The translations under genes and the position numbers were made by a program. A stretch of DNA of 64,000 bases from Roridomyces roridus (Eukaryota > Basidiomycota > Agaricomycetes > Agaricales > Mycenaceae), in contig JARKIF010000058.1 of assembly GCA_029378245.1 (NCBI GenBank), positions 62,001 through 126,000 of the forward strand, read 5' to 3'. A model generated the notes under the pieces. It worked only from the letters and a program-made list of their open reading frames with translations. It was not told the origin of the DNA and did not search any database. Below, piece after piece: positions 11,984 through 55,789 of the stretch (positions are counted from its first letter, which is position 1; each line of letters starts with the position of its first letter).

Positions 11984-11995
11984 CTCCCCCTCAAA
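11984..11995 (-). other. Polypurine tract of the Copia element
   Basis: On the minus strand GGTTTGAGGGGGAG lies immediately before the 3' LTR end TGTTGG. This is the expected site for plus-strand priming. It includes the pol stop codon TGA. Confidence 0.75.
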
Positions 11996-14900
11996 CCAGA
12001 ATCAACCCCAACTTTCCAACCAAGGGTTTGAACTTGAAAGCGGCCAGCGCCTTCGTGAAAACGTCCGCCGTCATCTCAGCCGTTGGACAATAAACAACCT
12101 CTAGAGTCCTCTTCTCGATCTGCTCCCGAATAAAATGGTAGCGTATGTCGATGTGTTTGGTGCGTGCATGGAATTGACCCAGTTCGGCGTGTGCAAGTGA
12201 AATCGCCGACTGGTTGTCGTTGTAGATGATGAACGGGAATTCGATGGACCCGAAAAGTTCGGCCATGAAATAACGGAACCAAATGGCCTCCTTCGCCGTG
12301 TAGGTGATGGCCACATATTCAGCCTCCGTCGTTGAAAGAGATACAATCTCCTGTTGTTTCGACGACCAAGAAACCACCGCTCCATTCAACACAAAAGCAT
12401 AGCCCGAAACGGCCTTCCTATTCTCCAACGACATTCCATCTGCATCCGCATAAATTTCCAAACCAAGTGTAGTATCAGCTGTGCTGTACACCAACGCCAG
12501 CGTGCGTGTTCCCTTCAAGTATTGAAGTACGCGCTTTGCTGCATGCCAGTGCGGTAGTCCTGGGTTGTCGATAAAACGAGACAAGACGCAGACCGCAAAT
12601 GCAAGGTCAGGTCGAGTTGCCGTAGCCAACCAGACTAATCCGCCAATCAACTCGCGATATGGGATGCTCCGCATTGCCGATGCTGCCTCTGAATCCACAG
12701 GGCACTGTTCGCGAGTGAGTTGAACCGTGGGATCCAGCGGAACCGAAACTGGTTTACAATCCACCATGTTGAACTTCTGCAGCAACGAGTCGATGTACGT
12801 CGTCTGCGACAAAGCCAAGGTCCCCTTCTCCCGATTCCTCTTTACTTCCATTCCCAACAACCAACTGATTGAACCCAGCATTGTGATTTTAAACATCTCA
12901 GCAATCTCCTTCTGAATCTCGTCAATCAATGCAGGTGAGTTGCCGGTAATAGTGCTGTCATCAATGTGAATGGCAAGCAACGCGATGTCTTCGCCTCGAG
13001 TTACACGATAGACGGCATGGTCGGAGTGGAGTGGGTAGATGTCGAGCGTGGCGAGAGATGCTGTGAGCTTCTCGTACCACTTTCGGCTAGACTGCTTCAA
13101 GCCGTAAATGGTCCGCTGAAGTCGGATCACCTCCGCCGAATTGCCGTTCGAATAGTACGGTGCCTGCTCCATGTAAATCTCCTCATCCTCCGAGAACTCG
13201 CCGTTCAAGAATGCCGCCGAGAAATCAAACACCTTGATCTCCCAGTCGTAACGCGCGGCAATAGATAAAATTGTGCGTAGTGAAGACAGTTTGGCTGTGG
13301 GCGAGAATGTCTCGAAATAATCCACACCTGGAACCTGCGTGAAGCCACGAGCAACGAGACGAGCTTTGTATTTATCGATCTCGCCGTTCGCCTTCCGCTT
13401 GATCCGTAGTGCCCATTTGGAGCCGACGACATTCCGGCCATCAGGTCGGGTGACTAAGCCGTCACCAAACGTGCCTGTCCTTCTCATCGCTTCCATCTCC
13501 ACGTCCATGGCTGCCTTGAACTCCGGCCAGTCTTCCCTCGTCATCGCTTCTTCGACTGTAGGTGAGTCTGATAAACTCCCCGTCCCTAGATATGCGAACT
13601 CCATCGCCACTTCCTCCAGGTACACGTCATCCGCCAACTCCGCTACGTGTGCGGCAGCCCGGCGCGTCCTGGTTCCCTCGATGATGTTTCTCGGGTCTAT
13701 GGTGCTCGAAATATCCTTCGGAGCAACCTGTGTCGACTTCTCCGGTGTATTTGGAGGTGTGGAGAGCGGAGATTCGGGTGGGGTCGGGGTGGAAATGGGA
13801 TCGGCGGGCTTTTCAGGTGCGTGCTGGATGCTCCTTGCGTCTGCCTTCTTCTCAACTTCCTTCTCCCCCTCATTCAGCACCCTATACAGCTCGCCGCTTC
13901 GTCTCACATCCGGAAACTTGACGCTCCGCTCGACACGAATCGCCCGTGTATCCGGGTAATAAATACGATGCCCGTCGATACTATCTGGATCAAATCCGAG
14001 CCATCGTCCCTCCCGCGATCTACCATCCAACTTGCCGCCGTCCTCGACGTGCACATCGACTTCGCAGCCCCATTCGTAAACGTGCCGCAAGTCTGGCTTT
14101 GTTCCGTGGAACGCCTCGTATGGCGTGCGACCGCCGAGTGCCCGTGTGGAAGTTCTGTTCTTCAACCACACGGCGTGCTTCAACGCTTCGCCCCATAAAT
14201 TCCTCGGCAATCCTGCCGCATGTAACATCGCTCGGACCTTCTCCAGGAACGTGCGATTTACTCGTTCGGACAGCCCGTTGTGTTCAGGTGTGTCGTGGAC
14301 CGTATACTTGCGCCGGATACCTCTCCGTGCCAAGTAGCTATCGAATTCATGATTTTTGTATTCTCCACCGTTGTCCGAATGCAATATTTTGATTTTAATC
14401 CCGTGTTCCCGCTCCCATCTAGCATCGAGATTCTGAAATGCCTCGAGGGTCTCGTCCTTTGAGTGCATCAACACAATCACAGAGTATCGCGACGCCTCGT
14501 CCGTGAATGACGCGTAATACTGCTTGTGCTGCGGTGTTTTAACGGTCGCAGGTCCCCACAGATCCGTGTGCACCTCGTCCCCGACTTGTCCCGCCGGTTC
14601 ACGTTCCTTCGCCCTTGAGATCGGCTTCCGCGTCATCTTGCCGTGCAAGCATGACTTGCAGTCCCCCGTGGAGGTGCCTGCCGTCTCATCCAACTCAACT
14701 CCGCTGACCAAGCCATTCTTTACTAGCTTCTTCGCCGCCTCGACTGGGACGTGTCCCAACAACCGATGCAGCTCCTCCGGAGTTGCTATCAAAGGACCAA
14801 CATCCGCAACATTCGCCTGAGCTATATACCCTCCGCTCTCGACTGAATACAACCCCTGCACCAGCGGTATCGTCCCGATCCGCCGACTCTTGTGGTCCAA

Positions 14901-16334
14901 AATACGGCATTCCTTGTCTCGAAACTGGACTGCGTAGCCGGCTCGCGCAATGCGCCCGATTGAAATCAACGTGACGCGCAGGTTGGGTACGTAGAGTACG
15001 TCCCTCAACAACACTCTCGTCTTACTCCCTCCATTTGGGACCTCCAGGTGCATATCACCCATCCCAACTGCGCTCAATCCCTTGTCGCCCGCGGCCATAA
15101 TTTCCCGCGGCGCGAGGGTCTTGTAATTCATCAACCGATATCGCGACGGTGTCATATGTTGACTAGCGCCCGAATCATATATTTCCCGCTCTTTGGTCGG
15201 TGTGGTGGTGGTGACGTTGGCTGCGACGATGCACTCGTCGAAGGTGCGTGATTCTAAATCGTGATTTAATCCACTACCTCCCGGCTCGTCTTCGTTATCT
15301 GTCGTCGACGAGACCGGTGGAGCTGACACACTCTTGTAGCTTCCTTCCGCATCCCGCCTGTCATCTTCTTCGTCCATCTCATCGAATTCAACATCGTCAT
15401 CCAACTCTGGCACCGTGGCTATCCAAGCCGCGTCCAATTCATTGACGGTCTCGGCGATGTTCGCCCTGCCGTTCTTCCTCTGGTGAGGGCTTTGTCCTTC
15501 TCGTCCGCCGCCCTTCGCCCAGCACTCTTTCGCAATATGCCCCTTTTTATGGCAATTGTAACATTCCATTGTCTTCTTCGACTTCTTGCCGCCATTCCCG
15601 TACCCGCCGTAGAATGCAGCTTCCTTTTCTCCCTTGCCCGTAGGCCGTGCCGCCTTGCGGTCGGCTTCATCACTAATGCCCTGCAGCACTGTGTCCGGGT
15701 CGAGAGTCTTTCCGAGTAGCGTCGCTGCACCTGTCAAAGCCGACAAGTACGTCTCGTAAGACGCCGGCAGTGAACCGAGCACGATCGCCACAAAGTTTTC
15801 ATCGCCGGGATCAGCCTCCATCGCAACGAGGTCTGCCCGAATCGTCTGTAATTTATTTATATGCGTCTTTACATCGCCTCCCTCCGCACAACGCTCGTCT
15901 TGAAGTTTCCTCCGTAGATCAACCGTAACCATTTTAGATTTCTTCTCAAATTCCCCCTTCACCTTCTCCCACATCACCCTCGCCGTCCCGGCACCCTTCA
16001 CCTTCAGAAACAACGAATCAGGAATGACAGACGCAAGCCCCTGCTTCAGGATCGCTTGCTCCGACTTCCAAAATCTCCTGCGCGTCATATGCGCGCCCAA
16101 CGCCGTTGTCTCCGCCGCTGTAGGGTTCTTGGGATCAACGACAGTGGGAGCCAATGGCTCCTCTGCCGTGCCCAACGGTCCGTCTTCGAAATGGTCACTA
16201 AGCCCGGCGGCGTCCACCGCGAATAGGAACCGATCACGAAAGAAGACCCAATTTGTGCCGTCGGCCTTGCAACTCGGCAGCTTCGTGAAGTACTCACCGA
16301 GTTTGGCCGTTGACGAGAATGTGTTCGTCGACAT
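11991..16334 (-). CDS. Copia Gag-Pol polyprotein (1447 aa, intact)
   Basis: A single frame runs from ATG 16334-16332 to TGA 11993-11991. Domains in order: Gag with a CCHC knuckle [14 protein letters not shown] near residue 255; aspartic protease with YDSGASQHM near 385; GAG-pre-integrase HRLLGHV and zinc motif CKSCLHGK; integrase core with D in VHTDLWGP (about 588), D in LHSDNGGEY (about 650) and E in [11 protein letters not shown] (about 687); reverse transcriptase beginning [14 protein letters not shown] with the catalytic HIDD (variant of YVDD) near 1125; RNase H with [19 protein letters not shown] and [12 protein letters not shown], ending [17 protein letters not shown]. The integrase-before-RT order defines Copia. 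No stop or frameshift interrupts it. The stop codon overlaps the polypurine tract. Confidence 0.95.
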
Positions 16335-28462: not shown

Positions 28463-29312
28463 TTTGAATTTTGAACTGCGCTGAGCTTGGGAGCTGTACA
28501 ATAGAATCTTGGGAAATACAAATGTAATATTAATCCAATTGAAGCTGGGCAACGAAATATGGTACTCTCTTTCTCTTGGTCGGCGTGCTCTGCCCCTGCT
28601 CCAGCAACTCGCCGAGACGAGAAGTGCCGGATCAACGGGGATCAAAGCCGCACGGACCAGGCGGCCATCACGTGCACTTCTCCCTCTTATGAATCACCGC
28701 CATGTCGACAGGTTAGAACTCTAACGAGCAGCGCCCGCAGCTATCTCAACGCACCAGACACCAATCCACGGCCACACCATCCTGGATTCCCTTCTCTGAA
28801 GACGCCACTGTCGGGCGGCATCTTAACGTCCTCCTCGTCTTCGTCTCCGATCCGGATTCCGCTCTTCACCATGCCCCAAACCGCGTGACTTGTCCTCCCA
28901 TCCGACCTGTGATAGTCCCTGTACTTTCCGAGCTTTGGCCGAGGAAGTGTATCCTGCCAACGGGCTCCGATGCCCGCCCCTCTCGTCAATTGTCCTCCGT
29001 GGCGAAATAACCTCTGTGCGCCCCAGCCTGGCCCCGAGGAACATCGCAAGCCGCATTGTTTTCAGTGCCAGTGGATTCATGCAACTTCAAGTGCCGGCTT
29101 TTGTCTTTCCTGGCTTCCGAGTTCCACCCACAACGGGCTTAGACATCATCGACGGTGTGATCCGTGTCCCTGGATGTGTTCATTGTTTATCCGCACCGAC
29201 TTTTGCCCGGGCTGTCATTGCCTGACCACAATCTGGACGGGGCTTGCAGGTGATGTGCCTATGAACTATAAAGGCTTGCTCTCCGCGCTTCGCAGTTCCA
29301 GCAGCTTCCAAC
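28463..29312. other. Intergenic between Con-6 and xylanase
   Basis: Both neighbours are on the + strand, so this stretch holds the Con-6 3' region and the xylanase promoter (TATA at 29267). Long shadow frames are present but unsupported. Confidence 0.4.
29267..29272 (+). promoter_or_regulatory. TATA box of the GH11 xylanase gene
   Basis: ACTATAAAGGC lies 46 bp upstream of the xylanase ATG. Confidence 0.6.
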
Positions 29313-30206
29313 ATGATCGCGCTTCCCCTTCTTTTTGCTCTTCTGGCGAGATTCACCTTCACCGCCGCCGTACCCGCCAACGAGAGCGGCCTCATCTTCG
29401 GTTATTTCTTTGCCTTTTCCGCCGACGATGGGGACGCGGCCACCTTTACCAACGAGGACGACGGAGAGTATGCCATCCAATGGGGAGAGAACAGCGGTCA
29501 TTTTATCGGAGGCGCAGGCTGGACCCCGGGCTCTCCACAGTCAGTGAAGAAATCTTTCTGCATGGACCTGAAAATAACGAAAGGAATGTCAGATCAATCT
29601 CGTACAGTACATTCAGTCCAGTCGGTAACAGCTGGTTCTCCATCTACGGGTGGACGACCGACCCACTTGTCGAGTATCGCATTCTAGAGGAGAATTTCGG
29701 CGGCGTCGATCCGACTGTCGGTCTCACATCAAAGGGCAGCCTGACCTCCGACGGCTCCGTCTACGACATCTACGAAGCTCAAATTGTCGACGGTGTTTCT
29801 CCAGTGGGGACATCCAACTTCACGCAGTATTGGAGCATCCGGCAGTCGCCCGTGAATGCCGGTATTCCGACCGTGACGACGCAGAACCATTTCACGGCCT
29901 GGGCTGCGGCAGGGATGCCTCTCGGGACGTTTGGATATCAAATCGTCGCCACCGAGCAAGTTGGTGGGGCCTCAACGGCAACTAATGCTGGGTCTCTGTC
30001 TGTTCTTGTGCGGACGCGGCCTGCGGACTTTGTAAGTATTTTTTCGTCGTGCCGAGGTCCTGTACTGGCTGAACGTACTTATTCCACAGTGTGCAATCGA
30101 GTACGCGCAGTGTGGCGGAGAAGGATTTACAGGGCCAAATTGCTGTGTTTCCAATACGACATGCGTGCAGAACAACCAATTTTTCTCTCAGTGTTTGGCC
30201 GATTAG
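29313..30206 (+). CDS. GH11 endo-1,4-beta-xylanase with C-terminal CBM1
   Basis: Exons 29313-29539, 29593-30031 and 30090-30206 give 260 aa in one frame. Signal peptide MIALPLLFALLARFTFTAA. The GH11 jelly-roll signatures are present in order: GYFFAFSADDGD, EYAIQWGENSGHFIGGAGW, then after intron 1 SISYSTFSPVGNSWFSIYGW, the nucleophile region PLVEYRILEENFGG, YWSIRQSP, HFTAWAAAGM, and the acid/base region YQIVATEQVGGAST. Only one change from the common EGYQSSG is notable after the second Glu. The last exon is a full CBM1: CAIEYAQCGGEGFTGPNCC, then NNQFFSQCL. A secreted enzyme that cleaves xylan while the CBM1 holds it on cellulose. The intron exactly separates catalytic and binding domains. A standalone gene with a close TATA box; a hAT-type element lies 175 bp downstream. 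Confidence 0.95.
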
Positions 30207-31451
30207 TTACTCTGTGTCATGGCGTACTTCGGGCCAGAGGTTTTGGCGATGAACTATTTACTTATCCAGCGCGAGGAGTGTTTCAAGAAGCCGATATTGG
30301 ACGACGGTTGAAACTGGACATTGCAAACCCGGTAGGCATCACCAGGGCCAAATCTGCCATCAGATGCGATTACTCCTTGTTAGTGTTGCCGCGAGACGAG
30401 ATCAAGATGATCTCGAGATGCCGTTTTGGGCGTCTCGCTGTCATCTCGTCTCGTTCTCGTGAAATCGTCTCGCAAGATTGATGTGCTAAGTACTGTCAAT
30501 AATCTATATATACTTATTCGGTCTGGCGTGTATGTAGGTGAATGTACAATAAATCTACTCCAATTCCTCAGCTAGCACTGGGCGGAAACTTTCCCGGATT
30601 CCATCCAATCCACCCGCCTCATCTATCTCCTCCTTCGATAAACCCGACACCATCTGCTTGATGTCAATCCATTGCGCGCGGGTTTTGGGCTTGGATTGCA
30701 TAATGGTAGCTTGCTGAAAAACAGAGGGAGAGTGAAGGGAGGAAGAGAGAATACGACACGGCGTTGGGACCCTGTAAATTAGGTTAGGCGGGCCCGAATA
30801 TTGCGCGTCGCTACGCGCAACCGTAGCTTTGCCGCTTAAAAAGACTGAGCCGACGTGCCTGAGGCGTTGGGACGTGCGTTTAGGTCGAGAGTGGAGGGAA
30901 CATGGAAGGTGGGATGCCGCAACAAGAGCAGTATCAGCCGGACGTGATGAGACGTGAGACGAGACCGAGACGAGATCATCTCGACTTGCCAAATTTAGGT
31001 TTAAGTATCTCCGTCTTGCGGCAACACTACTCCTTGTTCAACTCCCGTGTCGGACGGCCATCTCTTTTGCGAGTAGTTCGGCGGGAAAAGCAACTTGCGA
31101 GAGACGTGTGTGAAGTGGGTCGACTCGCGGGTACTTGTCTTGAGGGCGGGACTGTCAGACTAGTGACCCAAATTGATTACACTGCCGGGAATGTGGGTCG
31201 GGCTATGTCTCGAATTGAATGGGATATTTAACGGTTACAGCGGGCGCGGGTGTGGGTCAGGGGCGGGCGCCGATAACTACGCGTCAAGCTTCCGTGTTCG
31301 GCTTTCTGCTCCCAAGCGTAGTTATGTTCCGTTACATTACCAAGGTGCAAGGTCCCACACGGCAACGGCCAACTCAAACCGCATAATACGTATTCTTCCC
31401 GCCCGGTATATAAAGCCAAGAACTGGGCTCACTTCACCAACAGCAGTCGAC
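30207..31451. other. Intergenic, largely occupied by a hAT-type element
   Basis: The element is at 30381-31029. The rest contains the promoter of the next gene (TATATAAA at 31407-31414). A 145-codon minus frame inside the element is not supported. Confidence 0.5.
30381..31029. mobile_element. hAT-type non-autonomous element, 649 bp, 8-bp target duplication
   Basis: Ends TAGTGTTGCCGCGAGACG and (reverse) TAGTGTTGCCGCAAGACG form 18-bp inverted repeats with one mismatch. The eight-base duplication CTCCTTGT lies at 30373-30380 and 31030-31037. TIRs starting YAGTGTTG and an 8-bp duplication are the hallmarks of hAT. Subterminal GAGACGAGA motifs are repeated in both orientations (30393-30475 and 30950-30985). 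A minus-strand frame ending near 30555 is uncertain and does not resemble a full transposase. Confidence 0.85.
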
Positions 31452-42224: not shown

Positions 42225-42398
42225 TCAAGCAACGACGCACTGGCCGCTGGTCCCGCCTCCGCCGTCAGCATTGGTGGGGGGAAGGGTGACGTCCTCCTTG
42301 GAGACGACGCATTGGCCGCTGGTGCCTCCGCCACCGTCGGCGTTGGTAGGGGGGAGAGTCTCGTCGGCTTTGGTGGGGATGGTGGTGAAAGTGTCCAT
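42225..42398 (-). CDS. Putative mating-pheromone precursor with tandem repeat and C-terminal CaaX box
   Basis: A 57-codon frame, ATG 42398-42396 to TGA 42227-42225. It starts MDTFTTIPTKADE, the MD-x-F-T-T start common in basidiomycete lipopeptide pheromone precursors, and ends Q-C-V-V-A-stop, a CaaX prenylation box. Two copies of TLPPTNADGGGGTSGQCVV occupy residues 14-32 and 38-56. The first is followed by S-K-E-D-V, the second by A and the stop. The two copies are identical in protein but differ at 11 of 19 codons, all silent. A TATA box (TATAAAAA) lies 57-66 bp upstream. Expected handling by family: farnesylation of the last Cys, AAX removal and carboxymethylation, then export. No Ste3 receptor gene is visible in the window, so this may be an unlinked or B-locus-distal copy. 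A short secreted prenylated peptide of another role is the alternative. Confidence 0.75.
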   Translation of the reverse strand: MDTFTTIPTKADETLPPTNADGGGGTSGQCVVSKEDVTLPPTNADGGGGTSGQCVVA

Positions 42399-42454: not shown

Positions 42455-42462
42455 TTTTTATA
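42455..42462 (-). promoter_or_regulatory. TATA box of the pheromone-like gene
   Basis: On the minus strand GGTATAAAAACCC lies about 60 bp before the ATG at 42398. Confidence 0.6.
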
Positions 42463-42929
42463 CCGTTGAGTTCTTTTTGTTTCGCTGAACGAGGAAGGCG
42501 ATCGTGTTCTGTTATGCAAAACGAGGGAGAGGGGTAGCAGGAACAAAAAGGTTTTGTTTCGACAATTCAACCTCGCATTCGACTCAACTCAGTCTCCAAG
42601 GACAAAACACCTTGTTCAAACCATTCAGTTACATCGATTACCTGTGCCTGAATCGCGGTTCGTTTTACTGCAGACCCACCTCACTCTCAACGTAGCAATT
42701 TAGCATGCCTGTATGCATCTCTTCCGAAGAAGAGATGAGGCCCGGATTCTCAACGCTGCTCCGAGTCGGCCTTGTTCCGTTGACTGGACAGGGGTACCTA
42801 ACTGAACGGATCTGGGCTCGTTCAATTCACAAATTGAATGGACCCACAGAGTCCTCGATCACAGGTACTCGATCAATGAATGCGATCAATTGAAGGCGGA
42901 AAAACGTGGTTCGCCGTATGAATGAGGAG

Positions 42930-53665: not shown

Positions 53666-55789
53666 ATGCACCCCAGCCTCAGCCCGGCGGCACTGCAGTC
53701 TCTCCCTCTCTCCCTTCGTGTACGGGCACATCTTTCTCTCCCATGCCAGGCTTCTTTGCAGAGGACCGCAGTCGCGGCCGCGAAGGGCTCTCTCAAAGAC
53801 TTCACGAAGCTGCTTGGCGATGTCCCCGCTTTGTCTCCGATTTCTCACCATCTCCTCCCTGCTTTATACGGTCTGCTCGATCCAATGCAAGCCGAACGTC
53901 TCGAGGGTCTGGATTTCATAGCCACCGCAGGAGACACCGCGCTTCTCCTCTCCGCTTTTCTAGCAGTGGATCGTCTTTGGTTGCTTCCAGACATGCCGAA
54001 GGAATGTTACGGCGATCTATGGCCCCGGCTCTGGAGGTGGTCGCTGCTCATCATGCGACACAATTATTGTGTCCGGCAGTACACCCGTGAAGAGGTATGC
54101 CAAAGCAGATTTCACAACTTGAGATGCCTCACATCTCTTTCCCTCAGTTCCATATCACCATCATCCAACTCTTTTCAAGGCTCCATCGCAATTGCGAGAG
54201 AACTGCGAAGACCATCAGCGCGACCCCGGGACTGCGCCAGTTGGTGGCCCGAGTGTGGGTCCTCCTGTCCCGCAAGACCAACTCCAAATTTGCCGACTAT
54301 GCCCGCGACGATGTCCTCGACTTCATTCACTTTGGCCTTGATCTAAAAAATCCCGAGCATCTCAACGATCTCGTCGAGGGCTGCGGAGGCAGCCTCGTGC
54401 ACTTTGCGGATGTCCTTGTTGGCTTCTTCGCCAACCTCGCGAGCGACAACGCGCACAAGTCTTTCCGGCTAATGACGGGTGCTTTCAGCGTCTTGGAACA
54501 CACGACGGACATTTGGCCAGAGTTTCCCCAGCTACTTCTTAATAGAGGGATTGTTCGCGCGCAGGTGGTGATGCTAAGAAGACTTGCCTCTCATTCTCTG
54601 CCCAAAGATTTTGCACTTGACAAGTCTTACCATTCCTTAATATCGAACTTCTTGGACTTTCCATCTGAAGAACGGATGGTCGAGGCCGTCAGAGCCGGGC
54701 TCCTCCAGCTCATCGCATCCGCTCTGCAAACCCCGCGATTAATTTCTTGGCACCTTCTCGAACTCACCATTGTCGACCTCTCCGGATATTCGCCTTACCG
54801 CTCGGTCGTGGCTCAACTTTGGTTATCCATTGCCGAGGTTGACGCAACTATCGATGCTACTCTGGCGAGCCGCTCTCCGTTGTGGAAATCATGGAGACAA
54901 TTCCGCGATAGTGTGAGTGAGATGGTCAACACACTTAGAATCCATCGTGCGCCGGATTTACCGCCGATGCGCGCCTGTGATAATATCGAGGTACGTTCAT
55001 TTATATCTTTCGTCATCCTGCTCAGTCCCTGCTTCCAGTGTGGTGTGCTGTTCGGCAAACATGACCTGAAGCGCTGCTCTTGTTGTGAAACCGTTTTTTA
55101 CTGCTCCACTAATTGTCAGCGGCTTGATTGGCGGCGAGGCCACAATCAAACATGCGCCAAGATCCGAACTCACTTTCTTCGCAAGTCACCCCCAACTGGC
55201 TCATTATCATTTTTTATTGACCGAGCAGTGTCTAGATTCTCCTGAAATGCTTACCACGCAGTCATCTCGAGACGAGTCTTTCTTGCGCACGGTCGCATTT
55301 GCGACATACCACGCACGCCTGCCGTTCATACTCCTCGAAGAACTATCGTACATGCTCAAGTACCCCGATCAATCAGGGCCATTCGTTTGCTTCTTCGACA
55401 TTCAAACCGGCGAGCTCACATTTAGCGGGTCCGCTGAGAGCAATCTCGAGCGGGGGCACCGAATCTTCGGCCCAATGTGGGACGATCAAATGGCACGCGC
55501 TGCGAGCAACTGGGGGCAGAATCATATTCAACTCCTAAGTGTTTCGTGTTCCATCGGCAAGAAGCCAATCGCGACTCACCTGTTCACCATTCCGAAACCG
55601 ACGGGGCTACGAGAGGAATCGGTGGCGCTGGCAATGTCTGGGGAGCTTCCGCCAGGAGTGGTGGAGGTGGCGGACTTGAAAGTTGTGCCGGCGGTTATGC
55701 ATAGCATTGAGGTAATGGTCAAAGATCTGGACTTGGGGTGGTTGGGCGATCAAAGGGGGTTCAAATGCCATAAGGGAAGCTTCAAGTAA
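53666..55789 (+). CDS. MYND zinc-finger protein 3
   Basis: ATG 53666 (MHPSLSPAALQSLPLSLRVR), intron 54095-54147, long helical middle exon (LLSRKTNSKFADYARDDVL ... LPPMRACDNIE), intron 54993-55040, then the finger CGVLFGKHDLKRCSCCETVF then YCSTNCQRLDWRRGHNQTC. The C-terminal domain (SSRDESFLRTVAFATYHARL ... GFKCHKGSFK) ends at 55789. Between CAKIRTHFL and SSRDESFLR (about 55160-55265) the two parts are in different frames. An unresolved intron or a frameshift is possible. The region upstream of the finger is longer than in copies 1 and 2. No function is known beyond likely protein binding by the finger. Confidence 0.7.

Follow-up and report, generated by a model that had tools for sequence, protein, structure and literature searches.

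A pheromone-like precursor gene carrying its predicted peptide twice in the mushroom Roridomyces roridus

The reading frame and its surroundings

The window analysed was the whole 64-kb stretch of Roridomyces roridus DNA at positions 62001-126000 of the assembly contig labelled C456. On its minus strand, from 42398 down to 42225, lies a 57-aa frame, MDTFTTIPTKADETLPPTNADGGGGTSGQCVVSKEDVTLPPTNADGGGGTSGQCVVA*, with the layout MDTFTTIPTK-ADE-TLPPTNADGGGGTSGQCVV-SKEDV-TLPPTNADGGGGTSGQCVV-A-stop, and this short frame closes on a C-terminal CaaX box, CVVA, followed by the stop. Residues 14-32 and 38-56 are one identical 19-residue unit; between its two copies there are 11 silent differences among 19 codons and no others. 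This codon comparison confirmed the two units and the silent differences described in the original prediction, which had left the strand unstated. The features of the locus were as follows.

42225-42398, minus strand: coding frame including the stop, two-unit pheromone-like precursor; subtype A, with nine full-length copies in the assembly including the window gene (codon-position identity 0.99/0.99/0.84 versus 0.51-0.72 in the flanks)
42369-42398, minus strand: leader MDTFTTIPTK, lysine last, then unit 1; by a loose test, K or R occurs somewhere in the leader of 51 of 54 homologues
42303-42359, minus strand: unit 1, TLPPTNADGGGGTSGQCVV, from the sequence and the codon comparison
42309-42335, minus strand: predicted mature core 1, GGGGTSGQC, from strong co-variation at -8 to -1 before the Cys, with putative cleavage
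42297-42311, minus strand: internal CaaX-like box plus basic residue, C-V-V-S-K; C-[VI]-[VI]-x-[KR] in 54 of 54 homologues
42231-42287, minus strand: unit 2, TLPPTNADGGGGTSGQCVV, silently unlike unit 1 at 11 of 19 codons
42237-42263, minus strand: predicted mature core 2, GGGGTSGQC, from co-variation, with putative cleavage
42228-42239, minus strand: terminal CaaX box, C-V-V-A, stop immediately after; a box ends 25 of 54 homologue models
42455-42462, minus strand: TATA-like box TATAAAAA, at -64; a TATA-type hexamer lies at -46 to -114 in 20 of the 23 loci shown
42471-42485, minus strand: GCGAAACAAAAAGAA, putative conserved upstream element of subtype A; of the 9 subtype-A copies, 8 have GCGAAACAAAA just above their TATA box

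Among the 23 upstream regions shown, no TATA-type hexamer was seen in L009, L017 or L020 (L-numbers denote places in the assembly). The GAAACA core of the subtype-A upstream element is reminiscent of Ste12 sites; the four canonical precursors that were checked had no such core within 250 bases. Elsewhere in the window were a Copia-type retroelement frame of 1447 aa with RVT_2, gag and integrase (11991-16334, minus strand), a 503-aa frame with a glycoside hydrolase family 11 (xylanase-type) domain (28970-30481, plus strand) and a frame with a MYND zinc finger (54097-55245, plus strand).

The probability that all 11 differences would be silent by chance was 7e-7 to 2e-6 if every change was an independent hit. 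As a shift of the Gly run by one codon could have produced the four differing Gly codons, the prudent figure is that obtained for 8 independent changes, 3e-5 to 7e-5. The coding part of seven subtype-A copies (the nine without L002 and L004, which are probable alleles) was 93.9% identical, with 99.0, 99.0 and 83.7% identity at codon positions 1, 2 and 3, respectively, versus 51 to 72% in the flanks. Other copies and haplotypes of R. roridus differed almost only silently. The silent-only differences between units, together with the codon-position pattern seen against diverged flanks, indicated that the window frame is a genuine gene on which purifying selection has acted strongly, and the codon-position conservation supported the predicted coding selection on the peptide. 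A chance repeat was rejected, given the all-silent codon differences and the coding conservation relative to the flanks.

A gene family in Mycenaceae, linked to the B region

In the 90.8-Mb R. roridus assembly, 26 matches were obtained at E values up to 10, and the family counts given here are lower bounds. At least 17 two-unit frames (L001 to L017) were present, the window gene included; two were faulty, with L009 ending in CVVD and lacking a TATA box and L017 being out of frame with its ATG. Seven frames, again including the window gene, encode exactly the window-gene protein. L018/L019 has two boxes and a divergent second unit, L021/L022 and L026 carry the terminal unit only, as does a further single-unit frame, L066, that came from the PF08015 genome search, and decay has affected L020/L023 (a single place), L024 and L025. 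Of the 22 nondecayed frames, 21 retained the stop and the codons for C-a-a-X, the exception being L009. Several pairs look allelic (L002/L005, 95.7%; L004/L007, 94.3%; L018/L019, 99.5%; L021/L022, 99.95%), and the number of loci per nucleus is therefore smaller than the count.

Two natural variants were observed within this set. L021/L022 (C114:36625-36789 and C334:1050687-1050851) has lost the internal Cys (TNVVCKED), retaining VVCKED and the terminal unit; the internal unit is thus dispensable in at least one gene, and these frames constitute a natural single-product control. L014 (C1:2854738-2854914) carries two unlike cores in one precursor, GSSGTSGQC and TGSGTGGMC, whose two products would be separable by mass. 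Variants of these kinds, with the internal Cys lost or with two distinguishable units, make internal CaaX processing testable.

Homologues were sought with a profile of nine R. roridus two-unit sequences, scored against only the 7977 candidates sharing most words. This search yielded 54 database proteins, four of them from R. roridus itself. All 45 that carry species names were from Mycenaceae, a family of Agaricales; of the 19 species named, 17 belong to Mycena, and the others are Favolaschia claudopus and R. roridus. An internal C-[VI]-[VI]-x-[KR] was present in 54 of 54, a figure that is partly due to ascertainment because the profile was two-unit and only those 7977 candidates were scored. 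The fourth residue of this box was C in 50 proteins, S in 2, L in 1 and A in 1, and was followed by K in 48 and R in 6. A terminal CaaX box ended 25 of the 54 models (the raw pattern count of 26 included a CSLI that occurs by chance in the P0050 tail), and 12 of the 19 named species had at least one such model. Homologues with a conserved CaaX end, the lack of which would have counted against the original prediction, were thereby found. An acidic residue was located about 10 residues before the Cys in the window gene, as predicted for a maturation site: D occupied -9 in both units of 31 of 31 distinct pairs, mostly with E or D before it and with A-D in the window gene.

A divergent two-unit protein, P0056, is encoded on a 2943-base metagenomic JGI contig and has C-V-V-A-R between copies of ESGSGGQSGQC. 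A search from P0056 returned only P0056 itself, and the two-unit layout may, on the evidence of this protein, extend beyond Mycenaceae.

Public gene models differed from our frames at the 3' end. The two proteins obtained when the window sequence alone was the query, P0003 and P0004, are hypothetical proteins of R. roridus, on C57 and C113, whose annotated models splice off the terminal CVVA, and annotation has repeatedly removed the terminal CaaX box in this way (P0003, P0004, P0006 and many Mycena models). Because the box is spliced off, these genes are hidden as hypothetical proteins.

No STE3 match was found inside the 64-kb window. The position outside any visible Ste3 locus given in the original prediction held for the window, but the contig has three STE3 places (5.3-6.3, 209.9-210.9 and 236.5-237.6 kb), the nearest being about 98 and 105.5 kb from the window gene. 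Four single-unit CaaX frames lie near the last two of these matches (208.4, 209.4, 230.3 and 231.1 kb), three scoring above the PF08015 cut-off and one below it. Mapping relative to the B mating locus, a check that had been proposed, placed canonical B-locus precursors on the window gene's own contig, about 104 kb away. Contig C57 looks like the other haplotype of C456. The precursors beside STE3 differ between the two (1020/1022 kb on C57 versus 208/209 kb on C456), and two C57 frames near 1046 kb encode proteins identical to those of the C456 frames at 230-231 kb. The window-gene protein was identical on C456 and C57. A mating-type pheromone gene is placed beside STE3 and differs between mating types, and neither was observed for the window gene. 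From its distance to STE3 and its identity on both contigs, we concluded that the gene is linked to the B region but is not mating-type specific.

A B mating pheromone was accordingly rejected as a candidate, the gene being far from STE3 and identical on both haplotypes. A tandem pheromone gene of a rust lies 0.54 Mb from its receptor (PMC10977897; this and the other papers cited are represented by those parts of their text that were available). Distance alone does not, therefore, exclude a mating role, and the case against one rests more firmly on the identical protein of both haplotypes. The equal-scoring STE3 matches at C456:5339-6287 and C57:762721-763669 were on opposite strands, the other two STE3 pairs being on the same strand; an inversion between the haplotypes at that match is possible.

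Co-variation of the twin cores and the predicted product

The 9-residue cores preceding the two boxes were compared in 55 proteins (49 from the database and six R. roridus types; P0003, P0004, P0006, P0020 and P0056 were left out, and some rows are near-duplicates), 17 of which were without a complete unit 2. Identical cores were detected in 32 of the 38 two-unit proteins, with 16 different core versions among them; whatever the tree, this requires 15 or more changes in each unit. The cores were unlike each other in six two-unit proteins (P0009, P0026, P0029, P0033, L014 and L019, the second unit of L019 having been entered by hand as different), and a mismatch was also seen in at least 4 of the 17 models with an incomplete unit 2 (P0038, P0044, P0048 and P0049). 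When unit 2 was permuted, 13 of 23 distinct 11-residue pairs were identical, versus 0.9 expected (p = 5e-5, the test floor), in a test that left out P0009 and P0056 as outside its pattern and that, like the other permutations, treats related proteins as independent.

Co-variation was then resolved by position in 31 distinct pairs from 37 proteins, a set without P0003, P0004, P0006, P0020, P0056, our own near-duplicates and incomplete models. Observed versus shuffled agreement was 28 versus 10.6 at -8, 30 versus 24.8 at -7, 31 versus 13.7 at -6, 30 versus 21.8 at -4 and 28 versus 15.8 at -1, and co-variation at these five positions was strong (p from 2e-4, the floor, to 1e-3). In the LPPxN linker, p ranged from 0.02 to 1, with a weak excess at -12 and -10 (p of 0.02 to 0.03) and none at other linker positions. 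Strong co-variation was thus confined to -8 to -1 before the Cys, and the boundaries of the peptide are marked by co-variation alone. This boundary fits the lengths of mature pheromones as given in the available text of two papers, 9-14 aa (PMC4101180) and 10-11 aa (PMC8970355). The original prediction had set two lipopeptides beside a passive spacer as options, and the co-variation of the cores favours the former.

These results are consistent with the window gene belonging to a family of Mycenaceae precursors that are of the non-mating-type, a-factor-like (farnesyl) kind and carry the mature peptide twice, so that the predicted products would be two identical nonapeptides, GGGGTSGQC. Judged from sequence, we give this reading a probability of about 0.6. 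A wider proposal is put forward tentatively, at slightly less than even odds: that the multigene family encodes a dedicated, mating-type-independent lipopeptide signal used by Mycenaceae, that two identical farnesyl nonapeptides are released per precursor by a CaaX-K/R cleavage route absent from the mushroom papers examined, and that the peptide co-evolves with some STE3-type receptor.

Maturation could proceed in the following manner. The terminal CVVA would undergo the usual farnesylation, trimming and methylation. An endoprotease would cut after the K/R behind the internal C-V-V-[C/S], and the basic residue at that position suggests cleavage there; the K would be trimmed or tolerated, and the internal box, by then C-terminal, would also be farnesylated. 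A cut on the N-terminal side, near the acidic residue(s) at -10/-9, would give a peptide of roughly nine residues, GGGGTSGQ-C-farnesyl, two of them from every precursor. The freed C-V-V-[C/S]-K end would have to lose its K or act as a box of five residues; farnesylation is known for some boxes of this length, and none ending in K was found in the available part of that source (PMC11121372). Prenyltransferase, ICMT and M48 domains were found in the R. roridus genome, which is weak support as these families are widespread. The reader of the peptide would probably be one of several STE3-type receptors in a mating-type-independent role. The function of the non-mating-type STE3 receptors of mushrooms is described as unknown in the text seen of PMC8305134 and PMC3140503, and the family offers candidate ligands for them.

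It is unlikely, though less so than the other alternatives, that only the terminal unit is matured and that the internal unit is a duplication relic or propeptide spacer whose Cys is never prenylated. The single-unit relatives L021/L022, L026 and L066 exist, the internal Cys is lost in L021/L022, and FTase normally acts at the C-terminus, all of which agree with maturation of one unit. A passive spacer would not, however, be expected to follow the terminal core through 16 sequences, nor to have retained K/R behind the box in all 54 homologues.

Gene conversion or slippage could also make the two units alike in the absence of selection for two products. In subtype A, units 1 and 2 of one gene had 0.556 silent differences per shared-amino-acid codon and 0 amino acid changes, while silent differences between copies were 0.179 for unit 1 and 0.085 for unit 2, and hence divergence within a gene was approximately 3-fold and 6-fold that between like units of different copies. 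In L010, unit 1 encodes Ser(-6) by TCG and unit 2 by AGC, codons three base changes apart. These matched cores with unlike codons speak against recent conversion in subtype A and L010. The same Ser codons do occur in both cores of L011-L013 and L015-L017, leaving room for local conversion there, and a shift by one codon could account for the Gly run of subtype A. Homogenisation as the full explanation is nevertheless improbable: in subtype A, corresponding units of different copies are more alike than the twin units of one gene, the core of the window gene matches LPPTNAD in its high silent divergence (5 of 9 and 4 of 7 codons, respectively), L010 reached its Ser by both TCG and AGC, and the strong co-variation does not extend past the edge of the peptide.

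A prenylated small membrane protein with a second Cys that is perhaps acylated or metal binding, and no secreted signal, is very improbable. The Cys at the fourth residue of the internal box in 50 of 54 homologues does resemble an acylation or metal-binding pair, but the subtype of the window gene has C-V-V-S, an MDSF start and CV[IV]A end are common to most STE3-linked precursor frames of R. roridus, and the co-variation of the cores would be left unexplained. We give hardly any credence to the public models being correct, with an intron removing the terminal CVVA so that the product is no CaaX protein: splicing near the last Cys recurs in P0003, P0004 and many Mycena models and the box is absent at the stop in 29 of 54, but 25 of 54 models end at the box, its codons and stop are kept in all but one of the nondecayed R. 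roridus frames, the 100 bases downstream diverge like flank (0.72) and most spliced tails differ by eye between species, those shared by two Mycena vitilis models apart.

Comparison with known precursor systems

The PF08015 profile gave the window gene 17.1 bits, below the cut-off of 22, and L010 10.6 bits; L019, L021 and L026 had no match. None of the 9 places found in the PF08015 genome search was a two-unit gene of this family. The CaaX frame at C456:230340, approximately 6 kb from an STE3 match, was also below the cut-off (16.4), and accepted Flammulina precursors are listed with E values of 0.0013, 0.45 and 0.035 in the text seen of PMC3140503, indicating that this cut-off discriminates poorly. 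We file the window gene as working like a PF08015-type precursor and not as a Pfam member. It shares with the B-locus precursors of that family a short frame, an MD[ST]F start, a terminal CaaX box and acidic residue(s) about 10 before the Cys; those precursors, in contrast, carry one mature peptide, lie beside STE3 and differ between mating types.

The non-mating-type precursors of Agaricomycetes were compared by their published descriptions, as far as these were available. Agaricus bisporus has four Gly-rich examples that begin with MD[S/A]F and are either unlinked to MAT or linked to it only loosely, at least three of them being EST-supported or expressed; three resemble the consensus peptides GGGSGNGAYC of C. 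cinerea and GGGSGNNAYC of L. bicolor (PMC8305134). In Pycnoporus cinnabarinus, 4 of 7 precursors resemble this class (PMC4101180). Common to the class and the window gene are an MD[S/A]F-type start, a terminal CaaX box, a Gly-rich peptide and several copies with no tie to mating type (PMC8305134, PMC4101180); the class has one mature peptide, whereas the window gene has two and an internal CVV-[C/S]-[KR] box. No Agaricus, Coprinopsis or Laccaria precursor was among the 54 homologue hits. With its Gly-rich peptide, its CaaX end and its several copies untied to mating type, the window gene fits the known mushroom non-mating-type class except that the peptide is doubled, and it may work like a rhodotorucine precursor.

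At the level of sequence layout, the window gene has the rhodotorucine arrangement of tandem peptides with CaaX-like spacers, and the red-yeast spacer, presumably, also ends in lysine. The original view of a tandem pheromone-like precursor resembling those of red yeasts was to this extent borne out, the function being a predicted one. In red yeast, tandem sequences with such spacers give multiple pheromones (PMC3068285), and the tandem-peptide genes of two red yeasts differ by synonymous changes only (PMC3236058), according to the text available. The window gene differs from the rhodotorucine A precursors (RHA) in having two copies only, another peptide, an Agaricomycete host, many loci and a position far from STE3. 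No red-yeast protein was among the single-sequence or profile hits (54), in a short-word search that would miss distant kin. The enzymes maturing rhodotorucine A were described as unknown in 2010 (PMC3068285), and the maturation of tandem CaaX precursors is a question that the family of the window gene could address.

Tandem pheromone repeats in one precursor are likewise found in MFA1 of cereal rusts, which has three, and in Microbotryum precursors (PMC10977897, part seen). Rust MFA1 has been attributed to a mating-type receptor allele, at a distance of up to 0.54 Mb, unlike the window gene, which has two repeats and is identical on both haplotypes. Trichoderma reesei HPP1 has a repeated CaaX motif, the last one terminal, and rhodotorucine-like maturation has been considered possible for it (PMC3068285). 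Its three (LI)GC(TS)VM motifs are accompanied by Kex2 sites; the window gene has two CVV boxes and a single K between copies. The Trichoderma h-type class was rejected for the window gene, which has two CVV boxes and a single K in place of three such motifs with Kex2 dibasic sites. Removal of the HPP1 Kex2 sites did not abolish fruiting (PMC3068285), and basic sites between copies need not, therefore, be used.

In the open-licence literature searched, the available main text, supplementary alignments aside, made no mention of a twin-peptide precursor in mushrooms (PMC3140503, PMC8970355, PMC5473757, PMC8305134, PMC5100862, PMC8686365, PMC4101180 and PMC5755439). The part seen of a paper on a-factors of Leotiomycetes (PMC10569646) held no comparable precursor, and the Roridomyces and Mycena literature, as far as available, held nothing relevant, Mycena occurring only in a reference in PMC10949477. 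What appears to be new in the window gene is the combination of a tandem CaaX layout with the Gly-rich non-mating-type class of mushrooms, each part of which was already known.
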